Shown one piece after another: positions 11,894 to 23,380 of a stretch of DNA of 64,000 bases. Source of the DNA: Microbacterium ginsengiterrae. GTDB lineage: Bacteria > Actinomycetota > Actinomycetes > Actinomycetales > Microbacteriaceae. Both the position numbers and the translations under genes were made by a program. The stretch covers positions 1,984,001 to 2,048,000 of the forward strand of contig NZ_JACHMU010000001.1 of NCBI RefSeq assembly GCF_014205075.1, written 5' to 3'. Within the stretch, counting starts at the first letter, position 1. Each line of letters opens with the position of its first letter. A model generated the notes under the pieces. It made no database searches, was not told the DNA's origin, and was given only the letters and a program-made list of their open reading frames with translations.

Positions 11894-11920
11894 TTAGCAC
11901 TCTCGGGTTGAGAGTGCGAA
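11894..11920 (+). promoter_or_regulatory. CIRCE operator 2 upstream of groES
   Basis: TTAGCACTC-N9-GAGTGCGAA, a close match to CIRCE, just downstream of the -10. Bound HrcA would block initiation. Confidence 0.92.
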
Positions 11921-11960: not shown

Positions 11961-12257
11961 GTGTCGGTTTCCATCAAGCCGCTCGAAGACCGCATCGTCA
12001 TCCAGCAGGTCGAGGCAGAGCAGACCACCGCGAGTGGCCTGGTCATTCCTGACACCGCCAAGGAGAAGCCCCAGGAGGGCGAGGTCGTGGCAGTCGGCCC
12101 CGGCCGCATCGACGACAACGGCAACCGCGTTCCGCTCGACGTCGCCGTCGGCGACCGCGTTCTCTACAGCAAGTACGGCGGCACCGAGGTGAAGTTCGGC
12201 GCAGACGAGTACCTCGTGCTCTCCGCGCGCGACGTCCTCGCCGTCGTCGTTCGCTGA
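11961..12257 (+). CDS. groS: Co-chaperonin GroES
   Basis: Lid of the GroEL chaperonin. The 98-residue product starts [41 protein letters not shown]: the mobile loop ([10 protein letters not shown]) and the ending [21 protein letters not shown] are standard. GTG start with AAGAAGAGG upstream. Two CIRCE boxes imply heat-shock control by HrcA. No groEL follows: a terminator comes at once, then an unrelated locus, so the groEL gene must be elsewhere. Confidence 0.97.
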
Positions 12258-12378: not shown

Positions 12379-12408
12379 CCCCTAAGCCTCGGGGTGCCCC
12401 CCGATGCC
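12379..12408 (+). promoter_or_regulatory. Putative operator of the IniB-like operon (plus strand)
   Basis: CCCCTA-N4-TCGGGG followed after 3 nt by CCCCCGATGCC. The same ungapped 30-bp block (23/30 identical) lies upstream of the second IniB-like gene at 18839-18868. It ends 71 nt before the ATG at 12480. The near-palindromic half (arms CCCCTA and CCCCGA) suits a dimeric LuxR-type HTH, and such a regulator is encoded at 18875-21418. Confidence 0.6.
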
Positions 12409-12479
12409 GTGAGAGAGCCCGAGTCCCAGACTCATAACACGACGCCACTCCGGCACTCTCACGAACAGAGGAAATCATC

Positions 12480-13616
12480 ATGGCTGTGGAAGACAACCTG
12501 AATGTTATGGGTCTCCAGTGGAATCTGGGCGTCCAGGACAGCGGGAATGCAGTAGGCAACTCGAACGTCGAGGACAACGTCTGGGTTGAGGACTCGGGAA
12601 ACACCGACACCGACGTGGACTTCGACATCGATGACGATCACTCGAACAACGCGGACGACTCGTTCAACGACGACCACTCCAATCACGCGAACGACTCGTT
12701 CAACGACGATCACTCGAACCACGCGAACGACTCGTTCAACGACGACGAGTCCATCAACGACTCGTTCCAGGTCAACGACTCGTTCCAGGACAACTCCGTC
12801 CGTGACTCCGCGAACGACTTCTCGGTCAACGCCGGCATCCGCCAGTACGACACGGGGATCAACGAACTGAACCTGAACCTGGCCGGCGCCGGTGGCGGAG
12901 GTGCACTGGGCGGCGGCAACGTCAGCATCGATGCACGCACGCACCTCAACGACCAGTCCGTGAACCAGAACATCACGACCTCTTCCGGGTCGGGTGGCGC
13001 GGCTCTCGCCGTCGGCGGTGACTCCTCGGGAGGCTGGGGCGGACCCGGACTCTCCGGAGCGGGTAGCGGCGACGGCGGCGCAGGCGGGTCCGGCGGCGCT
13101 GGCACCGGCGGCGACGGCGGCACGGGAGGTCTGGGATCCGGCGGCGCCGGCGGCGCGGGGACGGGCGGCGCTGGGGCTGCCGGTGGGGGCTCCGGGGCAG
13201 CGGGTTCGCTCGCTGACGGAGGCAACGCCAACGGCGGCGACGCCGGCGGCGCCGGTGCGGTCGGTGGCGGTGCGTACGGCGGCAACGTGTCGCAGTACTT
13301 CGGTCAGAGCAGTGTCTCCGCCTCCGGCGACGGCTCTGTGGCGGCCGGCAACGACGCCGTCATCACGAACACCGACATCCGCGTGGAGATCGGCGACATC
13401 AACATCGGAAACGAGTACTACGACAACTCGTTCAACGACGACTTCTCGGACAACTGGTCGATCAACGACTCGTTCCAGGACAACTCGATGAACGACTTCT
13501 CGGACAACTGGAACGTGGAGGACTCGTTCCAGGACAACTCGATGAACATGGATCTCGATGTCGACAACTCCAACATCGACAGCCCGTTCGGCGACGCGAA
13601 CGAGATCGACTTCTGA
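12480..13616 (+). CDS. IniB-like Asn/Asp-rich repeat protein
   Basis: 378 residues, very acidic, no signal peptide and no membrane segment. Residues about 59-100 are near-identical 12-residue repeats (NDSFNDDHSNHA). Residues about 128-265 are Gly/Ala-rich with two conserved patches. The C-terminus again repeats SFQDNS/DFSDNW. The patches DARTHLNDQSVNQNI and SASGDGSVAAGNDAVITNTD, plus GDINIGN, are shared with the IniB-domain protein at 17942-18760, so the two are paralogues, although this one lacks the N-terminal IniB helix domain. It heads an operon with a small acidic protein and two dynamin-like GTPases, as iniB does in mycobacteria. ATG at 12480 has AGAGGAAA upstream. Probable role: cytoplasmic polymer or scaffold for the GTPases (inference). 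Confidence 0.75.
   Translation: MAVEDNLNVMGLQWNLGVQDSGNAVGNSNVEDNVWVEDSGNTDTDVDFDIDDDHSNNADDSFNDDHSNHANDSFNDDHSNHANDSFNDDESINDSFQVNDSFQDNSVRDSANDFSVNAGIRQYDTGINELNLNLAGAGGGGALGGGNVSIDARTHLNDQSVNQNITTSSGSGGAALAVGGDSSGGWGGPGLSGAGSGDGGAGGSGGAGTGGDGGTGGLGSGGAGGAGTGGAGAAGGGSGAAGSLADGGNANGGDAGGAGAVGGGAYGGNVSQYFGQSSVSASGDGSVAAGNDAVITNTDIRVEIGDINIGNEYYDNSFNDDFSDNWSINDSFQDNSMNDFSDNWNVEDSFQDNSMNMDLDVDNSNIDSPFGDANEIDF
12654..12760 (+). repeat. 36-nt tandem repeats within the IniB-like gene
   Basis: Roughly three 36-nt copies encoding NDSFNDDHSNHA, the last degenerating into ESINDSFQ. Codon-level differences are few, suggesting recent expansion. Confidence 0.8.
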
Positions 13617-13634
13617 GTCGACCTCTGCACGACC

Positions 13635-13665
13635 TGCCCGGCCCTCCCTTTCGGAGGGCCGGGCA
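13635..13665 (+). terminator. Hairpin between IniB-like gene and rest of operon
   Basis: Perfect 13-bp stem TGCCCGGCCCTCC/GGAGGGCCGGGCA, 5-nt loop, 18 nt after the stop. It probably lowers read-through into the GTPase genes, so the repeat protein would be made in excess. A TACACT at 13672-13677 may start a secondary transcript. Confidence 0.75.
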
Positions 13666-13706
13666 TACCAGTACACTCCGAAGCACCTTGATGAAAGCGT
13701 GACGCG

Positions 13707-13940
13707 ATGTCCAGCGACGAGCTCGGCGGGACCGGTTCATCCGGCTTCGACGACGAGCCGTGGGAGGGGCCGGCTGACCCGTTCGCCGACCCGTCGGGGC
13801 TGAACGCCTTCACCCAGGAGATCGAGAACGTCGACGCGTCCGACTGGGACGTCGACAGCGATTCCCTGTGGGGCGATACGGGGGTGGACACCGTCATCGA
13901 TGACGATGGCGGGACGTTCGAGACGGACTTCCCCGGCTGA
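13707..13940 (+). CDS. Small acidic protein in the dynamin operon
   Basis: 77 residues, strongly acidic, with Asp-Trp/Asp-Val repeats near the C-terminus (DWDVDSDSLWGDTGVDTVIDDD-like composition). No recognised domain. Position between the IniB-like gene and the first GTPase, and its composition, suggest a partner of the same system. The gene ends 19 nt before the GTPase start. Possibly a remnant or mini-version of an IniB-like C-terminus. Not proven to be expressed; coding-like codon usage supports it. Confidence 0.6.
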   Translation: MSSDELGGTGSSGFDDEPWEGPADPFADPSGLNAFTQEIENVDASDWDVDSDSLWGDTGVDTVIDDDGGTFETDFPG

Positions 13941-13959
13941 CGGGAAGAGGCAGCGGGAC

Positions 13960-15885
13960 ATGGGGGTTCACGTGCCGGACAGAGAAGAAGAACACAGCGC
14001 CGCGATCGTCGATGTCGTCCGCGATGTCGGCGATCTCGCCGCGTCGAGCGGGCGCGCCGACCTCGCAGAGCGCCTCGACCAGACCAGGGCCCGTCTGCGC
14101 GACCCCGGTGTGCGGGTGATCGTCGTCGGTGAGTTCAAGCAGGGCAAGAGCAAGCTCATCAACGCCTTGGTGAACGCGCCGGCATGCCCTGTCGACGACG
14201 ACGTGGCCACGAGCGTGCCGATGACGGTCGGCTATGCGGAGGTGCCGTCGGCATGGGTGCTCATGCAGTCGGATCCGACGGCGCCGCGCTCCGCTCCACT
14301 CTCGGTCACCCCTGCCGTCGAACGGCAGGAGATCGCGCTCGAGGACCTGCCGCAGTTCGTCTCCGAGCACGGCAACCCGTCGAACGAGCGCAACCTCCTC
14401 TCCGCCGAGGTGATGCTGCCGCGCGAGATCCTCAAGGGCGGCCTCAAACTCGTCGACTCACCAGGGGTCGGCGGGCTCGACTCGTCCAATGCGCTGGCGA
14501 CCCTGTCGGCGCTCTCCACCGCGCATGCCGTCCTCGTCGTCTCCGACGCCTCGCAGGAGTACACCGAACCCGAGGTGCAGTTCCTCAAGCACGCCATGCG
14601 CATCTCGCCGAACGTCGCCGCCGTGCTGGCCAAGACCGACCTGTATCCGCAGTGGCGGCAGGTCGAGCAGATCGATCGAGGACACCTCGAGCAGGTCGGC
14701 GACGTGCCGATGTTCTCCGTCTCGAGCGACCTGCGGCTGCTCGCGGCGCAGACGCAGGACCGCGAACTCAACGAGGAGTCCGGCTTCCCCGCGCTCGTCG
14801 CACACCTGCGTCGCGAGGTCCTCGGCCGTGCCGAGGTCATCCATGAACGCAGCGCCGTGCACGACCTGCACTCGGTCGTCGAGCAGCTCTCGGTCTCTCT
14901 GCGCGCGGAGCTCCACGCCCTGCAGAACCCGCAGGACACCCCGCGCATGATCGCGGAGTTGGAGGACGCCAAGGCCAAGGCGGACGAGTTCCGCGGTCGC
15001 TCAGCGCGCTGGCAGGTGACCCTCACCGACGGGATCACGGATCTCATCGCCGACATGGAGCACGACCTGCGCGACCGGCTCCGGACCGTGCAGCGGGAGG
15101 CGGAGCAGGCCATCGACGAGGGCGACCCCGGGCCGATCTGGGATCAGATCACCGAGTGGCTCGACCAGCGCACGACAGCCGCGATCACCGAGACCTTCGT
15201 GTGGACGGACGAGCGCTCACGGTGGATCTCCGAGGAGGTCGCCGATCTGTTCAGTCAGGGCGAATCCGCGATCCCGGCGATCGACGTCGGCGGCACCGAC
15301 GGCGTGCTCGACCCGGTCGACCCGATCTCCGGGTTGGATGCCGGAACTCTGAGTGCGGGCGAGAAGATCTTCATCGGCGTGCGCGGATCGTACGGCGGGG
15401 TGCTCATGGTCGGACTCGCAACCGGCCTGATCGGTATGGCACTGATCAACCCGCTCTCGCTCCTTGCCGGTGTCCTGGTCGGGCGCCGTGCCTATCGCGA
15501 GGACATGAGCGCACGCCTGAACCGACGACAGCAGGAGGCGAAGCAACTCGTCCGCCGCTACATCGACGAGGTGATCTTCCAGGTCGGCAAGCAGCTCAAG
15601 GATCGGTTGCGCCTCGTGCAGCGGACGGCCCGTGACCACTTCGGCTCGATGGCGGAGGAGCTGCATCGGTCGTTGTCCGACGCGCTCACCTCGGCGAAGG
15701 CCGCAGCGGGGACCTACACGGCGACGCGCGACGATCGTGTCGAGGCGCTGCAGGACAAGATCGCCCGCCTCGATCGCATCCGTGATCTCATCCCCGTCCT
15801 CCCGCCGCCGGTCATGCAGAGTCTGCCTGCCCCGCCCAGCCGGAAGGATGCCGACACTCCCGTCGACGCGGAGATCGTCGGATGA
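13960..15885 (+). CDS. Dynamin-like GTPase 1 (IniA-like)
   Basis: 641 residues. GTPase domain: P-loop GEFKQGKSK (57-65), a candidate switch Thr in DDDVATSVPMT, DSPG (about 165-168) and AKTD (about 224-227). A long helical region follows, then a hydrophobic segment (about 480-515, VLMVGLATGLIGMALINP) like the membrane paddle of bacterial dynamin-like proteins, then a return helical bundle. Family knowledge: mycobacterial IniA binds membranes and promotes fission, and is induced by cell-wall inhibitors. ATG at 13960 is chosen (AAGAGG upstream, just after the small gene); an in-frame ATG upstream would overlap it. Overlaps the second GTPase by ATGA, consistent with a heteromeric pair. Confidence 0.88.
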   Translation: MGVHVPDREEEHSAAIVDVVRDVGDLAASSGRADLAERLDQTRARLRDPGVRVIVVGEFKQGKSKLINALVNAPACPVDDDVATSVPMTVGYAEVPSAWVLMQSDPTAPRSAPLSVTPAVERQEIALEDLPQFVSEHGNPSNERNLLSAEVMLPREILKGGLKLVDSPGVGGLDSSNALATLSALSTAHAVLVVSDASQEYTEPEVQFLKHAMRISPNVAAVLAKTDLYPQWRQVEQIDRGHLEQVGDVPMFSVSSDLRLLAAQTQDRELNEESGFPALVAHLRREVLGRAEVIHERSAVHDLHSVVEQLSVSLRAELHALQNPQDTPRMIAELEDAKAKADEFRGRSARWQVTLTDGITDLIADMEHDLRDRLRTVQREAEQAIDEGDPGPIWDQITEWLDQRTTAAITETFVWTDERSRWISEEVADLFSQGESAIPAIDVGGTDGVLDPVDPISGLDAGTLSAGEKIFIGVRGSYGGVLMVGLATGLIGMALINPLSLLAGVLVGRRAYREDMSARLNRRQQEAKQLVRRYIDEVIFQVGKQLKDRLRLVQRTARDHFGSMAEELHRSLSDALTSAKAAAGTYTATRDDRVEALQDKIARLDRIRDLIPVLPPPVMQSLPAPPSRKDADTPVDAEIVG

Positions 15886-17513
15886 CGGCCGACGTCATCG
15901 CCGACACGGACTCGGTGCTGGCCGCCGCCGCAGACATCTATCACCGGGACTCCGCCGCGCTCGCGGAGATCACGGCGCTGCGTAACCGGCTCCATGAGCC
16001 ACTCCGACTCGCGATCGCCGGGATGGTCAAGGCCGGCAAGTCGACGCTGCTGAACGCGATCCTCGGCGAGCAGATCGCCCCGACGGACACCGGGGAGTGC
16101 ACGCGCGTGGTGACCTGGTACCGCTACAGCGCGACACCCTCCATCACCCTGCATCCCCGCCGTGGTGTGCCGCGCCGCATGCCGATCCGCCGCGAGGGCG
16201 GCCGGCTGGTGCTGAGCCTCGGCGATCTCACGGCCGAAGAGGTCGAATGGATCGACATCGGCTGGCCGCTGGACGGGCTGAAGGACGTGATCCTCATCGA
16301 CACCCCGGGGATCGCCTCGCTGTCTGAGGACACCTCCGCCCGCACCCGGCGGTTCCTCACCCCCGACGAATCCCCGTCCACCGCGGATGCCGTGGTGTAC
16401 CTCATGCGGCATCTGCACGGCGCCGACGTGCACTTCCTCGAGGCGTTCCGCGACACGGCCGCGGGCAGCGCGCGCAGCGTCTGCGCCGTCGGTGTGCTCT
16501 CGCGCGCCGACGAGATCGGGTCGGGGCGCATCGACTCTCTGCTGTCGGCGGGCAAGGTCGCCCAGCGCTATGAGCGCGACGGCGATCTCGCCTCGCTGGT
16601 GCTGCGCGTCGTGCCGGTGGCGGGCCTCCTCGCCGAGGGAGCCCGCACGCTGCGCGAGAGCGAATACATCGCGCTGCGCGAGCTCGCCGGGCTCGAGCGA
16701 GGTGCCAGGGACAGGCTGCTCGTCTCCGCGGACCGGTTCACCCGGCCGACGTCTGCCACGGCACTGAGCACCGCCGTCCGCGAGGACCTGCTCGCGCGGT
16801 TCGGCATCTTCGGAGTGCGTCTGGCGACCGCGCTCATCCGCGGCGGCGTGCGCTCCTCCTCCGAGCTGTCCGAGCAGATGGTGCAGCAGAGCGGTCTGAT
16901 CGAGCTGCAGGACTTCGTCGCGGCGCAGTTCCACGCCAGGGCGGCGACGTTGAAGACGCGCGGTGTGCTCCTCGAGCTGCAGCGGGTGCTCGGCGAGCAC
17001 CCGCGGGACGGGCTCGACGAGGTGCACGCCGGGATCGAGCGCATCACCCTCGGCGCGCACACCCTGCGCGAGTTGGATCTGCTGGCGATGGCGCGCTCGG
17101 ACGGCCTCCCGCTGCCGGAGGGCGAGGTCGACGCGGCCGAGCGCATCGCCGGTGTCGACGGCATCGGCGCGGCCACCCGGCTGGGTCTTCCGGAGGACGC
17201 CGACGGCGACACCCTGCGTGCGCGTGTCACCGAGGAGATCGACCACTGGCGTCACCTCGCAGCGTCTCCGCTCGCGGAGCGAGCGACCGTCGGCGTGTGC
17301 CAGGTGATCCTCCGCAGCCTGGAGGCGATCGCCTCAGAAGTCGGCGCCGGCCGGGCTCTCGGGTCCGCGTCGGACGTCGTGCTTGCGGGCGGTCCAGCGG
17401 ATGGCGCGGGGCATGATGCTGCTGAACAGGGCGAGCAGCACCAGCGCGGCCTGCGCCGCAAGAAGGGGTGGGATCGACTCGCCGCGCTCACCCAGCGCCA
17501 CCCATTCCGGTGA
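15882..17513 (+). CDS. Dynamin-like GTPase 2 (IniC-like), 3' end overlaps opposing gene
   Basis: 543 residues as read. P-loop GMVKAGKST (47-55), DTPG (about 140-143), SRAD (about 207-210), then a helical domain. No clear membrane segment, unlike its upstream partner. Start ATG overlaps the previous stop (ATGA). Mycobacterial IniC is about 490 residues; here homologous-looking sequence ends near residue 485 (17334) and the final 60 residues (Gly/Gln/Arg-rich) lie antisense to the C-terminus of the membrane-protein gene at 17334-17945. Either the true overlap is 180 bp or the native stop was lost; codon 17334-17336 is TCA, opposite the neighbour's TGA. Core assignment is secure, the C-terminus is not. 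Confidence 0.82.
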   Translation: MTADVIADTDSVLAAAADIYHRDSAALAEITALRNRLHEPLRLAIAGMVKAGKSTLLNAILGEQIAPTDTGECTRVVTWYRYSATPSITLHPRRGVPRRMPIRREGGRLVLSLGDLTAEEVEWIDIGWPLDGLKDVILIDTPGIASLSEDTSARTRRFLTPDESPSTADAVVYLMRHLHGADVHFLEAFRDTAAGSARSVCAVGVLSRADEIGSGRIDSLLSAGKVAQRYERDGDLASLVLRVVPVAGLLAEGARTLRESEYIALRELAGLERGARDRLLVSADRFTRPTSATALSTAVREDLLARFGIFGVRLATALIRGGVRSSSELSEQMVQQSGLIELQDFVAAQFHARAATLKTRGVLLELQRVLGEHPRDGLDEVHAGIERITLGAHTLRELDLLAMARSDGLPLPEGEVDAAERIAGVDGIGAATRLGLPEDADGDTLRARVTEEIDHWRHLAASPLAERATVGVCQVILRSLEAIASEVGAGRALGSASDVVLAGGPADGAGHDAAEQGEQHQRGLRRKKGWDRLAALTQRHPFR

Positions 17514-17945
17514 CAACAGGACCAGGAGCACCTGCAGGCACAGCGTCGCCAGTTGCCACCACCGCACATGCGGACGCCTGCTCATGAACGACACCATGAG
17601 GGTGATCTGGACGAGAAGCACCCCGATCATCAGGGCGAACACCACCCAGAAGATGATGTCGGCCGCTGATTCATACGTCGCCTCACCGCGACCGGCGGTG
17701 ACCTTCTCCGCCCGTTCGGCGATGAGCGGCAGCAGGTCCTCCCGGATGACGAAGAAGTACACCAGGGTGAACGCGCCGACGGTGAAGCTGATGATCCAGA
17801 AGAACTGACTGAACCGTACGGAGAACGGCGGCGGGACTTTGACGAGCACCGGTGCGGCGTTGACGCCACGGACGGGAGGCCGCCCCGGGGCCTCCCGTCG
17901 TGGCGGGCTCCCGTTGCCGGGAGCCGGGTTCGACTGGATGGTCAC
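17334..17945 (-). CDS. Four-helix membrane protein linked to IniB-like gene
   Basis: 203 residues. A Pro/Arg-rich N-terminus (1-40) is followed by four hydrophobic helices at about 45-67, 95-120, 127-145 and 153-175, with a charged loop (REDLLPLIAERAEKV) after the first. No family recognised. The GTG start overlaps the stop of the IniB-like gene by 4 nt (GTGA), so the two are co-translated. Likely the membrane partner of the IniB-like protein or of the GTPases converging on it from the other side (inference). Confidence 0.75.
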   Translation of the reverse strand: MTIQSNPAPGNGSPPRREAPGRPPVRGVNAAPVLVKVPPPFSVRFSQFFWIISFTVGAFTLVYFFVIREDLLPLIAERAEKVTAGRGEATYESAADIIFWVVFALMIGVLLVQITLMVSFMSRRPHVRWWQLATLCLQVLLVLLSPEWVALGERGESIPPLLAAQAALVLLALFSSIMPRAIRWTARKHDVRRGPESPAGADF

Positions 17946-18760
17946 TGCTCTGCCGGTGCGTCCTCGTAGACGGTGTCGTCGACGACCGCGGCGGTGGCAT
18001 CCGCCTCGTACGACTCCTCGGGAGCCGCGGTCATGTCCGACTCGAGCACATCGGCGGGCTCGTCCATCATGACGACCGCGACCGGCTGCGGCGCGACCAC
18101 GACGTTGCTGTCGGCGACATTGCTGTCGGTGGCGGCGACGCCGACGTCCGTGGAGTTGTCCTGGAAGGAATCGTCGACCGTGGCGTTGTTCGAGGCGTCG
18201 TCGGTCGAGTTGTCCTGGAAGGAGTCGTCGATGGTCGAGTTGTCGGAGTTGTCCTGGTTGAAGGAGTCGTTGAACTCGTCGTTGCCGATGGAGATGTCAC
18301 CGGTGGTGATGTCGGTGTCGGAGTGGGTGACCGTCGCGTTGTTGCCGGCGGCGACGGAGTCATCGCCGGAGGCGACGACGGCCTCCTGGTCGAAGATCTG
18401 CGTGACGTCTCCGCCGTTGGTCCAGATGTTCTGATTCACCGACTGGTCGACGATCGTCGAGCGGGCGTCGATGGACGTGAACGAACTCACCAGGCGGATG
18501 ATCTCCTTGACGACGGGGTCCGGCGGCTCCGGCGGGTTCGGCGGGTTCGGAGGCCCAGGAGGCTTCGGAGTGACGGAAGGGTGATCGACGATGACGGGCG
18601 CGACCGCGCGCACGTCGGCGGCGCAGGCGTCCTGCACTCCGCCGCGGAACATCGCCCCCTCCGGATCGGCTTCGAACTCCTCGACCGCATCCGGGTCGCG
18701 CAGGAGGCTGAGGATGAAGGCGATCAGCGCGTCTGCGATGACCGCGACAGGTGAACTCAT
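17942..18760 (-). CDS. IniB N-terminal-domain protein with Asn/Asp repeats
   Basis: 272 residues, acidic, no signal peptide. Residues 1-50 (ALIAFILSLLRDPDAVEEFEADP and following) match the short amphipathic IniB N-terminal domain of mycobacterial IniB. A Pro-rich hinge (about 62-85) precedes the block shared with the 12480-13616 protein: DARSTIVDQSVNQNI, VASGDDSVAAGNNATVTHSD, GDISIGN, then SFNQDNSDN/DDSFQDNS repeats (about 155-190) and an acidic tail. ATG at 18760 has AGAGGT upstream. The promoter region carries the same 30-bp block as the other IniB-like gene. Role inferred: scaffold or regulator for dynamin-like proteins at the membrane. Confidence 0.82.
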   Translation of the reverse strand: MSSPVAVIADALIAFILSLLRDPDAVEEFEADPEGAMFRGGVQDACAADVRAVAPVIVDHPSVTPKPPGPPNPPNPPEPPDPVVKEIIRLVSSFTSIDARSTIVDQSVNQNIWTNGGDVTQIFDQEAVVASGDDSVAAGNNATVTHSDTDITTGDISIGNDEFNDSFNQDNSDNSTIDDSFQDNSTDDASNNATVDDSFQDNSTDVGVAATDSNVADSNVVVAPQPVAVVMMDEPADVLESDMTAAPEESYEADATAAVVDDTVYEDAPAEQ

Positions 18761-18838
18761 GAGGTGACCTCTTCGTCTGTACCGAGTATCGAATCACGTG
18801 GGGAGCTGTTGACGAGCGTATTGGCTCGTGTGCGGGCG

Positions 18839-18868
18839 GGCATCGGGGGTGGCCCCGATAGATAGGGG
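18839..18868 (-). promoter_or_regulatory. Putative operator of the IniB-domain operon (minus strand)
   Basis: On the minus strand: CCCCTA-TCTA-TCGGGG, 3 nt, CCCCCGATGCC. Ends 78 nt before the ATG at 18760. Matches 12379-12408 without gaps. Confidence 0.6.
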
Positions 18869-18874
18869 GGGTGC

Positions 18875-21418
18875 TCAGGGGGGTCCTGCTCTGTCCCCGG
18901 GGTGCGGACCGTTGGCGCTCGGAGAGGAGGCCTCCGGCCCGAGCAGCTGGCGCAGTTTCGCGATGACCTCCGACCGCGAGTTCGCGCCCAGCCGGCGCCG
19001 GATGTGCGCGATGTGGTGCTCCGCGGTCCGCGGCGAGATGAAGATCGCCTCGCCGATCTCGGCGTAGGTCTTACCCTCCACGACGAGACGGGCGACCTCG
19101 AGTTCCCGCTCACTGAGGATCTGATTCGGCGCAGCCTCCGCGGACGCTGACGCCCCGGTGGCGCCCGCCGCCATCGCGCGCCGCGAGCCGTCCAGCGGGT
19201 GCAGTTCGCGTGCACAGGCGAGCAGGCGCGACGAGACCTTCCGATCCTGCGAACGAGCGGCGCCGTGCCCCGCCAACCGGGCGGCATCCCACACCAGACC
19301 GATCGAGGCGAGACCGTGTGCGCCCTTCTCGACCGCATCGGCGTCGACCGTCCCGCCGAGGACCGCCGTCCACACCCGCCCCGCCTTCGCCATCGTCGCT
19401 GCGACGCGGCTGTTCGAGGAAGCCGCCACGAGTGCCTTCGCGTGCGGCCGCAGCGACTCGGGCCTGTTGAGGAGGATGCCGTTCTGGATGCCGGCCCAGT
19501 GCAGATGCGCCGACCACAGGGCCGGTTCGTCGATCCGCGCGATGATGTCCAGCGCACGACGGAACTGCGGACGGATGCGGTCGGTGTCACCCACGCGCGA
19601 TGCCGAACTGACGAGCTCGGCGAGGGGATGCAGCAGGAAGAGGTCGACGTCGACGCGCAGCAGCACCGCCCTCGCCTGGCGCCAGGCGCTCTCAAGTCCG
19701 GCGGCGTCCTCGTAGCGCCGCGCGATGGCGACGTGGACGGCGTGCGCGAGCAGTTCGTCCCTCGGGCATCGGATCGGGACCGCGTCGGCGAGAGCGCTCT
19801 TGGCCTCTGCGGGTCGCGCCATCTGCACGGCGATCCACGCGCGCCACAGCAGCAGTCTCGACCGCGCCCAGCGGCCGCCCTGTTCGCCGGCGATCGCGTC
19901 GTCGATGATCGAGCGCGCCGTGGCGAGACCACCGAGGTTCAGCGCGACGTTCGCCGCGATCACTGCCGGGAGCTCCGGAATGCCATCGGGGGAGTGCGAG
20001 GCGGTGAACATCTCGGAAGCGCGTACGAGATCAGCCAGTGCCGCCTCCGCCTGATCGGGGGCGAGCGAGGCGTCGAGTCCCCGACGCATCATGCTCATCG
20101 CGACGCCGAGGGTGGACGGCGCCACGGTCTCGGTTGCCGCATCCGTCTCGATGCTTCCGACGGCGAACCCGGCCATCCGCGCGCGCACCGCCGAGATGGG
20201 ATCCGCCGGCGGTGCCGATCGGTACACCGTGACGGCCTGATGCATCATGCCGCGCGCCGACCAGATCGCGGCTGCCGTGTCGACGAGGCGGTCACGGTCC
20301 GCGGCATCCCCGTCCGATGCCGGTGGACGAGTGCCCGGAGCGCCGACCTCGTCGATGAGCGCGCTCGCCGCATCGAGGTCACCCACCGACCACGCGGCCG
20401 CGGCCCGGCGCCCGGCGAGCGAGGCGATGGGGACACCGAGCTGCGCGGCGCTCTCGTACAGTTCCGCCGCGCGCGTGGGATGCGACGCCAGCAGAGTATC
20501 CGCATGTCGCACCAGCGCATCGGCGGGGTCGGTACCGGTCGCACGTCCCAGGTCCACGAGGCGCTCCGTCGGGGTGTCTGCCTGCACGGCTGTCCGCACG
20601 AGCGGCACAGGCTGGCCGCTGCGCAGCAGCAGGCCCTCCGCGTATGCCTGGATGCCGAGGTCCGAAGTCTCGGCCGTACCGCCACTCCCGAGCGTTCCGA
20701 GGCAGGCCTGTTCGACGTGTGCACGCAGCGGCGGGGCCAGCATGCTGAGCCGGTGGGCGATGCGCTCCTCGATGAGTTCACGCACGCCGCGATGCCGACC
20801 ATCGCCGCCGCAGCCAAGATCGTCGTGCAGCCGGATCACGTCGGCGACGAGCCACGCCACGCCGCCGGTGAACTCGAGGATGTCACGCAGGCACGAATCG
20901 GGCATCGCGACGCCGAGCGTTCGCGCGAAGTCCGCAGCATCGACCGCGGAGACGTGCCCGAGCACGATCGTCGGCCCTCCTCGTTCGAGCAGCCGCGTGA
21001 CCTCGACGAGCCGTTCGTTCCACGCGGAGGGGCGCAGGGCAACGATGAGCCCCGCATCAGGGTCGGCGGCGCGCTCGAGGAGACGCGTGAGCTGCGCGTC
21101 GTCGGCGAGGTGCAGGTCGTCGACGATCAGCGATCGCGACGGCGGGTTGCCGCCGATGTCAGGACTGCGCGGGCCGACGAGGAGGGTGTCCCGAGAACGG
21201 TCGTCGAGGAGGTCTCGCAGATGGTGCAGCGTGACGGTCTTCCCGGACCCGGCATTGCCGACGATCACGGCCCGCGGTGTAGCCTCGCGTACGGCGTCCA
21301 CGGCCGGGGCGATCATGCGCTCCCACACGGCCGCACCCGGTCTGTGGTGCGGCGCGGGGCGTGCGTCTTCCCTCGTCGCCGTGGCGGGCGCGTGCGGAGC
21401 GTCGGTGAGGAGCGTCAT
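18875..21418 (-). CDS. Large LuxR-type ATPase regulator (IniR-like)
   Basis: 847 residues. N-terminal AAA/STAND-type ATPase with Walker A GNAGSGKT (54-61) and Walker B-like SLIVDDLHLAD (about 96-106). A long helical TPR-like middle follows, then a C-terminal LuxR HTH (about 780-835: SERELEVARLVVEGKTYAEIG, SPRTAEHHIAHIRRRLG). Architecture and size match the large LuxR-type regulators, including mycobacterial IniR (Rv0339c, adjacent to iniBAC). Likely activates the two flanking IniB-like promoters after ligand or ATP-driven oligomerisation (inference). It starts 12 nt after the Hsp70-like gene and is co-transcribed with it. Confidence 0.87.
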   Translation of the reverse strand: MTLLTDAPHAPATATREDARPAPHHRPGAAVWERMIAPAVDAVREATPRAVIVGNAGSGKTVTLHHLRDLLDDRSRDTLLVGPRSPDIGGNPPSRSLIVDDLHLADDAQLTRLLERAADPDAGLIVALRPSAWNERLVEVTRLLERGGPTIVLGHVSAVDAADFARTLGVAMPDSCLRDILEFTGGVAWLVADVIRLHDDLGCGGDGRHRGVRELIEERIAHRLSMLAPPLRAHVEQACLGTLGSGGTAETSDLGIQAYAEGLLLRSGQPVPLVRTAVQADTPTERLVDLGRATGTDPADALVRHADTLLASHPTRAAELYESAAQLGVPIASLAGRRAAAAWSVGDLDAASALIDEVGAPGTRPPASDGDAADRDRLVDTAAAIWSARGMMHQAVTVYRSAPPADPISAVRARMAGFAVGSIETDAATETVAPSTLGVAMSMMRRGLDASLAPDQAEAALADLVRASEMFTASHSPDGIPELPAVIAANVALNLGGLATARSIIDDAIAGEQGGRWARSRLLLWRAWIAVQMARPAEAKSALADAVPIRCPRDELLAHAVHVAIARRYEDAAGLESAWRQARAVLLRVDVDLFLLHPLAELVSSASRVGDTDRIRPQFRRALDIIARIDEPALWSAHLHWAGIQNGILLNRPESLRPHAKALVAASSNSRVAATMAKAGRVWTAVLGGTVDADAVEKGAHGLASIGLVWDAARLAGHGAARSQDRKVSSRLLACARELHPLDGSRRAMAAGATGASASAEAAPNQILSERELEVARLVVEGKTYAEIGEAIFISPRTAEHHIAHIRRRLGANSRSEVIAKLRQLLGPEASSPSANGPHPGDRAGPP

Positions 21419-21430
21419 CTGCCTGGCGGG

Positions 21431-23380
21431 TCAGACGGCTTCCGGCGCGGGGCCGGGCGTCGCTTCCGGGGTCGGTGGCGTCTCGACGTACGGGGCCGGG
21501 TCCTCCGCCGGCTGCTCCGGCGCCGGATCGACGGGCGTCGGATCCACCGGCGTCGGATCGGCCGGCGGCGGGTCGACCGGCGTCGGTTCGGGGTCGGCCG
21601 GTGTCTCCGGCTGCGACGGCCCTGGATCGGTCGTCACCGGTGGCGTGTCCGGGGTGGATCCGCCCGGCGTCCCCTCCTGTGTCCCTGGATCGGCGGGCGG
21701 GTTGCCGGAGGCGGGCGGATTCGTCGTCCCGGACGATCCGCCGTCGTTCGGCGAGCCGGGGGTGGGCTTGGACCCGGACGACGGCGCGCCCGGGGAGGAC
21801 TTGAGGCCGGAGCTCTTCGACGGCTTCGACGACGTCGACGACGTCGACGACGAGTCCGCCTGCGGCCGGTTGGACTTGCGCGCCGGCGCGGCGGTCGAGC
21901 GCGTTTCCGACTTCGCGGTGGTGCGGTCGGTTCGGCTCTGCGGCTGCTGCTCGGAGACGGGGACGGCCTGCGGGGGCCCATCGGCGGGCCCCGACTGCGC
22001 CGACGGGCCGCTGGTGCTGCTCGCCATCGGCAGGTGGAGCAGAGCGGCCGCGGCCTCCTGCACATAATCGGGCCAGCGGGTGCCGGCGGCGGTGGTGCTG
22101 CTGAAGACGATGGTGATCGCGATGAACGCGGCGGCCCCTGCCAGCAGCACAGGGGAGGTCGACCGCGACTTGCCGGCGAGGACCGGGCGCAGGAACGCGA
22201 GGACACGGCCTCGCTCCGGCTCGGCCTGCGGCCGAGGAGCGGGGGCCTTCTCGGTGGCTGCGATCGTCGCCAGGGCAGTGCTGGGGGCAGCGGAGGCGTC
22301 CTCGCGCATCTGCTCCCCGACGATCCGCGCCGCACCGAGCGCCACGGTGGACTGCGGGTCCGCCTCGGCGACGATCGGCAGATCGAAGCGCTGCGACAGA
22401 CGCTGCGCCACGAGCGGGATGCGAGACGATCCGCCGGTGAGCATGATCGCCTCGACGTGGTCGACGCCGCCGGTCGCCGATTCGATCGCGAGGTCGAGTG
22501 CCTCGACGGTGCGCTCCAGGTCGGCGTCGATCATGGCCTCGAACTCCGAGCGCGTGATGCGCACACTCGCCTCGCCCGTCGGCATCGTGAGGTGGACGGT
22601 GGCATCGCCGGCCGAGGAGAGCAGCTCCTTCGCGGCGACGACGTCGTGACGGGCGCGCGCGAGTGCTTTGCGTGTGGCGTCGTCGACGACCATCGGCCCG
22701 GTGCCGAGCACATGCCGCAGCAGCGCATCATCGAAGTTCGCGCCGCCGAGCTGGTCGATGCGCACGAGTTCGCCGACGGGCTGGTACCGGCCGCTGGAAC
22801 GGCGGCGTCGCAGCACGCGCGCGTCGAATCGCGTGCCCCCGAGGTCGTACATGGCGACCAGCCGCCCCGCGTCGACCGGGTGCGATGCTTCGAGCTGCGC
22901 GGCCGCCGCCGCGGGTTCGCTCACGAGGATCGCCTCACCGATGCCCGCTCGGCTCAGCGCGGCGCCCAGCCGTTCGATGCGGTGGCCGCCCCACGACGCC
23001 GGGTGTGTGACGGCGACGCGGTCGGGTCGATCACCCATCGCCGTGGTGACCTCGTCCGCGATCCAGGCGCACATCCGAGCGACGAGGTCGTCAGGGGAGA
23101 CGGCACGAGCCCCGACGACGACGGGGGTGTCGGTTCCGACGTCATGCGCGAACTCGCGAGTCAGACGGTGAGGTTCGAGGATTCCGCGCTGCTCGGCGTC
23201 CACGCCGAAGAGGAGTCCGCCCTGCTCGTCGACGAACGCAGCCGAAGGAGCGCTGTGCCCACTAGCGCCTAGCGAGAACAGTGTCGGATCGTCGTATGCC
23301 TCGCGCGCGATGTGGACGACGGCCGCTGTGACACGGCTGCTGCCGACATCGATGGCGAGAGCGAAAGGAACGTCTCTCAC
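21431..23380 (-). CDS. Membrane-anchored Hsp70-like protein with Pro/Ser-rich tail
   Basis: 649 residues. Hsp70-type actin-fold ATPase domain (1-370): phosphate-1 loop AIDVGSSRVTAAV, phosphate-2 YDLGGTRFD, adenosine motif LTGGSSRIPLVAQRL. There is no substrate-binding domain. Instead a single transmembrane helix (about 405-430) leads to a roughly 200-residue, presumably extracellular, Ser/Pro/Thr-rich tail ending in PxDP/PTPV-type repeats. This is not DnaK; such proteins are probably sensors or signalling ATPases. It heads an operon with the LuxR-type regulator, suggesting it relays an envelope signal to it (inference). Start GTG at 23380; an in-frame ATG upstream was not found. Confidence 0.85.
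   Translation of the reverse strand: MRDVPFALAIDVGSSRVTAAVVHIAREAYDDPTLFSLGASGHSAPSAAFVDEQGGLLFGVDAEQRGILEPHRLTREFAHDVGTDTPVVVGARAVSPDDLVARMCAWIADEVTTAMGDRPDRVAVTHPASWGGHRIERLGAALSRAGIGEAILVSEPAAAAAQLEASHPVDAGRLVAMYDLGGTRFDARVLRRRRSSGRYQPVGELVRIDQLGGANFDDALLRHVLGTGPMVVDDATRKALARARHDVVAAKELLSSAGDATVHLTMPTGEASVRITRSEFEAMIDADLERTVEALDLAIESATGGVDHVEAIMLTGGSSRIPLVAQRLSQRFDLPIVAEADPQSTVALGAARIVGEQMREDASAAPSTALATIAATEKAPAPRPQAEPERGRVLAFLRPVLAGKSRSTSPVLLAGAAAFIAITIVFSSTTAAGTRWPDYVQEAAAALLHLPMASSTSGPSAQSGPADGPPQAVPVSEQQPQSRTDRTTAKSETRSTAAPARKSNRPQADSSSTSSTSSKPSKSSGLKSSPGAPSSGSKPTPGSPNDGGSSGTTNPPASGNPPADPGTQEGTPGGSTPDTPPVTTDPGPSQPETPADPEPTPVDPPPADPTPVDPTPVDPAPEQPAEDPAPYVETPPTPEATPGPAPEAV

Follow-up and report, generated by a model that had tools for sequence, protein, structure and literature searches.

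An iniBAC/iniR-like locus of Microbacterium ginsengiterrae with a membrane-anchored Hsp70-like protein and a predicted IniR operator

The iniBAC operon is a prominent response of mycobacteria to drugs that act on the cell wall, and the question addressed here is by which route damage outside the membrane reaches its regulator IniR. We analysed a window of 64,000 nucleotides from Microbacterium ginsengiterrae (contig NZ_JACHMU010000001.1, positions 1,984,001 to 2,048,000), whose region 12379–23380 had been predicted to hold an iniBAC-like locus of eight genes. All eight open reading frames (ORFs) are present in this region, and the orthology of its two GTPases with IniA and IniC, an IniR-like regulator and a curated IniB N-terminal domain support its identity. 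It is a real, well-conserved ini locus of the known kind, in another layout and another host group.

IniR is required for induction of iniBAC, is bound directly upstream of the operon in chromatin immunoprecipitation sequencing (ChIP-seq) and resembles MalT in its domains (PMC5760070). In M. marinum, iniBAC is induced by trehalose, also without the known inner-membrane transporter; the authors concluded from the transporter mutant that the sensing system is periplasmic, and they found IniR multimers without trehalose (PMC5760070). In our view this leaves space for a membrane sensor. iniR and iniBAC are separated by an iniB-related gene, iniB*, and in M. smegmatis iniR has a dnaK-like gene beside it (PMC5760070). 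No sequence of the IniR site was found in the available portions of PMC5760070, and the motif that HpoR binds in the promoter of iniBAC is another one (PMC13413693). IniA has membrane scission activity while IniC was too unstable for analysis (PMC6715688). A limited literature search, covering titles and the beginnings of abstracts, returned no paper on an ini locus outside the mycobacteria.

An ini locus in another layout

For comparison, locus maps were drawn from 141 sequences, of which five duplicates were dropped; 104 of the remaining 136 have enough flank for counts of gene content. The loci were sorted into Microbacterium type, Arthrobacter type, Mycobacterium-like, f20, f11 other and other after the maps had been seen, and "Mycobacterium-like" (genus g102) is an inferred label for 19 genomes with IniR over the cut-off.

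The first dynamin-like GTPase of the locus (13960–15885, forward strand) matches M. smegmatis IniA (PDB 6j72) with an E-value of 4.5e-126 and 425 bits over residues 35–622. Its ORF opens at 13900, but by eye the ATG at 13960 is preferred because the earlier start would overlap the ORF of a small acidic protein (13707–13940). The second GTPase (543 aa, 15882–17513, forward strand) scores 45.7 bits against Dynamin_N (cut-off 27), and its matches in the PDB are weak. In a quick maximum-likelihood tree built from 56 hand-chosen loci out of the 136 (112 rows, 56 of each kind), one branch with support of 100 separates the IniA-type from the IniC-type rows, and the Mycobacterium-like IniA and IniC proteins each fall in the matching half. 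We therefore treat the second GTPase as the IniC orthologue and regard the pair as predating the divergence of these lineages. Within each half, the 16 Microbacterium-type rows cluster together in the tree as printed, and IniC adjoins IniA in all 35 complete Microbacterium-type loci. Together, the match to PDB 6j72 and the tree bear out the proposal that the two GTPases are related to IniA and IniC.

The ini module is widespread in the class. Among 393 class genomes at least 90% complete (all counts include the own genome), IniA is found in 51 (E <= 1e-60) and IniR in 41 (E <= 1e-20), 19 of the latter over the cut-off and all 41 with IniA. IniB_N is found in 43, 40 of them over the cut-off and all 40 with IniR; one IniR genome is without IniB_N, and ten IniA genomes are without both IniR and IniB_N. 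Within a family sample of 100 genomes, IniA occurs in ten (E <= 1e-10; eight strong, two weak). Searching named genomes with 16 aligned IniA proteins gave at least 573 confirmed candidate loci, and the best 80 of these include Microbacterium, Arthrobacter, Pseudarthrobacter, Paenarthrobacter, Agromyces, Georgenia, Agreia and Naasia, among others.

Gene order follows three main layouts. Microbacterium-type loci have a single repeat protein or two, in some cases the acidic gene, and IniA and IniC on one strand, with the Hsp70-like gene, IniR, IniB and a four-helix gene on the other. Although these loci were retrieved by IniA alone, the six other main genes accompany it in 35 of 35 with complete context, so the predicted co-occurrence holds for seven genes; it does not extend to the small acidic gene, for which relatives were detected in 7 of the 35. 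In the Arthrobacter type, the Hsp70-like gene, IniR, IniB, IniA and IniC share one direction and the four-helix gene is convergent; IniA, IniC, IniB and IniR are present in 48 of 48 complete loci, the Hsp70-like gene in 47 and the four-helix gene in 44, and in one locus (L174) the Hsp70-like protein and IniR lie in one ORF. Mycobacterium-like loci have IniR and the Hsp70-like gene leftward, and iniB*, iniB, IniA and IniC rightward; IniC, IniB and IniR occur in 11 of 11 complete loci and the Hsp70-like gene in ten, as searched with the Hsp70-like query of the window. All four complete f20 loci have IniC, the Hsp70-like gene, IniR and IniB, and none has the four-helix gene. The "other" group (four complete loci) has IniC in all, the Hsp70-like gene in three, and IniR and IniB in one, and the two complete loci of f11 other have IniA alone. 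Microbacterium-type loci were also seen in records labelled Actinomycetales, Propionibacteriaceae and Phycicoccus (L120, L127, L159), which suggests either transfer between families or mislabelled bins.

Presence within the genus is patchy, with IniA in 15 of 59 genomes (E <= 1e-60), as might be expected if the locus were an anti-phage dynamin system of the Leo/Eleos kind. The PADLOC library, which supplies no cut-off, gives weak matches in this direction (IniA, 57.1 bits to LeoBC and 46.1 bits to LeoA; IniC, 32.9 bits to LeoA and another of 20 bits). The match of the first GTPase to IniA is far stronger, the repeat, acidic, four-helix, IniB and Hsp70-like proteins of the locus have no PADLOC match, and that of the regulator is weak (18.7 bits, at its helix-turn-helix (HTH) end), and we regard an anti-phage role as highly improbable.

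The IniB protein of the locus (272 aa, 17942–18760, reverse strand) matches IniB_NTERM NF038175 with 63.6 bits (cut-off 40). It is modelled as an ordered helical N-terminal domain followed by a repeat tail predicted to be disordered; structure prediction gave no confident fold for the tail, and among 43 IniB proteins scanned against Pfam no family occurred in more than two. To the extent that the literature was searched, this picture of IniB is new. The Asn/Asp/Ser/Gly-rich repeat protein of 378 aa (12480–13616, forward strand) has no Pfam, NCBIfam or IniB-domain-profile match. It shares with the opposing IniB only a core around DQSVNQNI...SGDxSVAAGN and NDSFQDNS-like repeats. The predicted "pair" of IniB-like proteins thus stands for the opposing protein, and "doubling of IniB" is not exact, since the other protein is without the IniB domain; nor is an extra IniB-like gene new, as iniB* is already known from mycobacteria (PMC5760070). 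The order with iniB directly before iniA in one operon was not found either, the repeat protein taking that place with IniB on the other strand. M. smegmatis is without iniB (PMC5760070), so this order varies within the family. Leader-like docking domain and disordered tail could also mean that the IniB-type proteins are substrates, a modified or exported polymer, in place of scaffolds, which we consider very unlikely. Two f20 genomes (L198, L199) carry very long, repeat-rich IniB_N ORFs of 1586 and 1553 aa that adjoin an Hsp70-like gene.

Two small proteins complete the locus. The acidic protein (77 aa, 13707–13940, forward strand) has no match in Pfam and NCBIfam, searched with the first 65 of its 77 codons, or in PADLOC, searched at full length. 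The four-helix membrane protein (203 aa, 17334–17945, reverse strand) has no Pfam family over the cut-off and no Foldseek match at E <= 0.001. Its gene and the IniC-like gene overlap tail to tail by 180 bp (17334–17513), which is long for a convergent pair. Directly upstream of the locus, a CIRCE-like inverted repeat TTAGCACTC...GAGTGC (11894–11919) precedes a gene read by eye as groES (11961–12257).

A predicted operator before the two operons

The two operon starts of the window have in common the dyad TCGGGG-N3-CCCCCGA. At the first (12379–12408, forward strand), a CCCCTAA box (12379–12385) is followed by TCGGGGTGCCCCCCGATGCC, with the core at 12389–12404 and its far edge 91 bp before the start of the repeat-protein gene. 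At the second (18843–18858, reverse strand), TCGGGGCCACCCCCGA is followed by TGCC, and 98 bp separate its far edge from the start of the IniB gene. The exact dyad has only these two copies in the 3.04-Mb genome. With up to one mismatch there are six matches in the window (four of them the two sites on both strands) against 0.54 expected from shuffles, and 27 readings in the whole genome against three for the reversed pattern. Because the pattern was drawn from the two sites, only their isolation elsewhere in the genome is independent evidence.

A matrix built from IniB promoters only (34 Microbacterium-type sites, with the tested locus left out) placed the repeat-protein promoter above every other position of the locus in 16 of 38 cases and among the top ten in 28, where about one first rank is expected. 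With a matrix of 43 Microbacterium-type sites, 37 of 48 loci of that type, the training set, have their best match before an IniB or repeat-protein gene. Among the other types, the best match precedes the iniB gene in 30 of 54 Arthrobacter-type loci and in five of five f20 loci. A single universal dyad was also considered and was rejected, as it would cover one of 12 Mycobacterium-like loci only.

Mycobacterium-like loci are marked by a related box. At least one copy of CCCCTAA is present within 300 bp before 24 of 24 IniB-domain genes of these loci, and within the same distance before 41 of 54 in the Arthrobacter type, three of three each in f11 other and other, and three of nine in f20. It was found in 4 of 121 upstream regions of Hsp70-like genes, and none was found before the IniA, IniC, IniR, acidic or four-helix genes among those tested. 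The pattern ATCCCCTAATCCCCTA occurs 11 times, in 10 of the 19 Mycobacterium-like genomes, and by position all 11 copies precede IniB_N genes, nine at the ini locus and two before unlinked ones; the reversed-pattern control is uninformative here, as the pattern is the same read backwards. All five unlinked Mycobacterium-like IniB_N genes that were fetched (L193–L197; ORFs of 331–977 aa) have CCCCTAA repeats upstream. Their likeness to the repeats of the ini locus suggests one wider regulon.

We therefore propose TCGGGG-N3-CCCCCGA as the predicted IniR operator of this locus, with related sites recurring before iniB genes in other genera; as far as the literature was searched, this goes beyond what is in print.

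The Hsp70-like protein and a possible route to IniR

The last gene of the reverse strand (21431–23380) encodes a protein of 649 aa that matches PF00012 with 93.8 bits over profile positions 105–370 of 599, which is the ATPase part only. By eye it keeps IDVGSS, DLGGTRFD and LTGGSSRIP, which we take to be nucleotide-binding motifs. The usual chaperone build of ATPase and substrate-binding domain was not found, as a membrane helix (residues 411–429) and a Pro/Ser/Thr-rich tail come after the ATPase domain. The membrane-anchored Hsp70-like protein of the original prediction is hence real, but its novelty is reduced by the dnaK-like gene known beside iniR in M. smegmatis (PMC5760070).

Most of the printed relatives have the same build, the exceptions being some "other" loci with further sequence in the tail and L071, where one of two Hsp70-like matches looks like an ordinary DnaK. 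By a simple hydropathy cut, a membrane helix after residue 250 is present in 35 of 42 Microbacterium-type, 41 of 48 Arthrobacter-type, three of five f20, 15 of 15 Mycobacterium-like, three of five f11 other and four of seven other Hsp70-like matches. All counts of Hsp70-like genes given here are based on similarity, and ordinary DnaK may be included. A mycobacterial query found the gene at the ini locus in six of six Mycobacterium-like genomes, beside iniR in five and after iniC in one (G416). It also found the gene where the query of the window had missed it (G409, L081). At L083 the tail beyond the membrane helix resembles beta-propeller repeats by eye and is a possible sensor head.

The Hsp70-like protein accompanies the locus in both main layouts and is put forward as a candidate for the transmembrane input that the IniR pathway lacks, which again goes beyond print as far as searched. 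In the mechanism that we propose, damage outside the membrane would be sensed by its Pro/Ser/Thr-rich tail, directly or through a released wall component. The cytoplasmic ATPase domain would hold or release IniR, a MalT-like activator, much as MalK does with MalT. Released IniR would then bind the GGGG/CCCC dyads before the two operons, as predicted from the conserved DNA, and activate both of them, the forward one with the genes for the repeat protein, the acidic protein and the two GTPases, and the reverse one with those for IniB and the four-helix protein. IniA and IniC might then remodel or seal the cytoplasmic membrane; fission is in print for mycobacterial IniA only. The IniB-type proteins, with a small docking domain and a long disordered tail, may organise the GTPases at the site of damage, perhaps with the four-helix protein as membrane partner. 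Regulation, sensing, membrane repair and the envelope-stress role itself are inferred for this organism.

It is also conceivable that IniR alone is a cytoplasmic sensor of trehalose or another sugar, and that the Hsp70-like gene lies there as a neighbour that is co-regulated or has a structural part, for instance as an actin-like membrane scaffold, and is not the input. The resemblance of IniR to MalT and the induction of iniBAC by trehalose in M. marinum (PMC5760070) would fit this, as would the presence of three to four Hsp70-like matches in each of the six Mycobacterium-like genomes and the separation of the Hsp70-like gene from iniR in some loci. However, the authors of the same paper infer that trehalose need not cross the inner membrane, and they saw IniR multimers without it (PMC5760070); moreover, loci of the two main layouts with complete context almost always keep the Hsp70-like gene (47 of 48 Arthrobacter type, 35 of 35 Microbacterium type). 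A sensor of this kind appears doubtful to us.

Several observations weigh against the reading with the Hsp70-like protein as input and the dyad as operator. The regulator (847 aa, 18875–21418, reverse strand), an ATPase with a LuxR-type HTH, scores 338 bits against IniR NF038181, below the NCBIfam equivalog cut-off of 750, so that the predicted IniR-like regulator stands at the level of a clear family resemblance. The Hsp70-like gene is not beside iniR in five f20 loci and L084, and in the available portions of PMC5760070 a dnaK-like gene is mentioned for M. smegmatis only, though M. marinum and M. tuberculosis respond to stress. Occurrence in the genus is patchy, as noted above. Microbacterium is not known to have mycolic acids, so that the trehalose cue need not apply. 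As for the operator, the IniB-promoter matrix fails to rank the repeat-protein promoter first in 22 of 38 loci, and the 43-site matrix picks the iniB promoter in one of 12 Mycobacterium-like, none of eight f11 other and three of nine other loci, several of which are without an iniB gene. CCCCTAA is rare in the Microbacterium type (4 of 43 IniB and 2 of 53 repeat-protein upstream regions), so that the operator is not one fixed sequence. The loosened dyad, with up to one mismatch, turned up in every one of 30 Microbacteriaceae genomes, of which 15 have a detected IniA and 15 do not, in similar numbers among the matches listed and sometimes exactly; loose matches are thus not specific.

With these points set against the evidence above, we lean slightly towards the locus being a Microbacterium-type version of an actinobacterial ini envelope-stress module that works by the mechanism proposed, the two taken jointly. 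A broader and more tentative idea, about which we have some doubt, is that an Hsp70-type ATPase with a membrane helix and a wall-reaching Pro/Ser/Thr-rich tail might be a receptor for cell-wall damage that gates a MalT-like activator across Actinobacteria, and might control a dynamin membrane-repair regulon through a shared operator, reaching in mycobacteria also the unlinked iniB paralogues. It would be analogous to Wsc and Mid2, the wall sensors of yeast.

Comparison with known systems

With a membrane partner that recurs, a candidate operator and a host group free of mycolic acids, the route from damage to IniR would become testable in harmless bacteria, and the pathway would prove not to be specific to mycolate walls. 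A rearranged ini relative with an Hsp70-like protein and matching predicted sites is a hint that a system of this kind, for the sensing and repair of envelope damage, may be old and widespread.

The closest described system is mycobacterial iniBAC with iniR and iniB*, with which this locus has in common IniA, IniC, the IniB N-terminal domain, IniR, an extra IniB-like gene, CCCC/GGGG-rich DNA before iniB genes and an Hsp70-like gene at the locus. It differs in having two opposed operons in place of one, a gene before IniA without the IniB domain, extra acidic and four-helix proteins, a dyad instead of CCCCTAA repeats, and a host group that is not known to have mycolic acids. Arthrobacter/Agromyces-type loci have the same main genes except the separate repeat protein, but in their single-direction order, with a convergent four-helix gene and usually a single IniB that carries both domain and repeats. 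The likeness to E. coli MalT–MalK lies in the MalT-like domain composition of IniR (PMC5760070), whereas the membrane partner proposed here would be an Hsp70-type ATPase and not the ATPase of an ABC transporter. The bacterial dynamins of Leo/Eleos likewise have paired dynamin-like GTPases, but their sequence match is much weaker and their partner genes are different.

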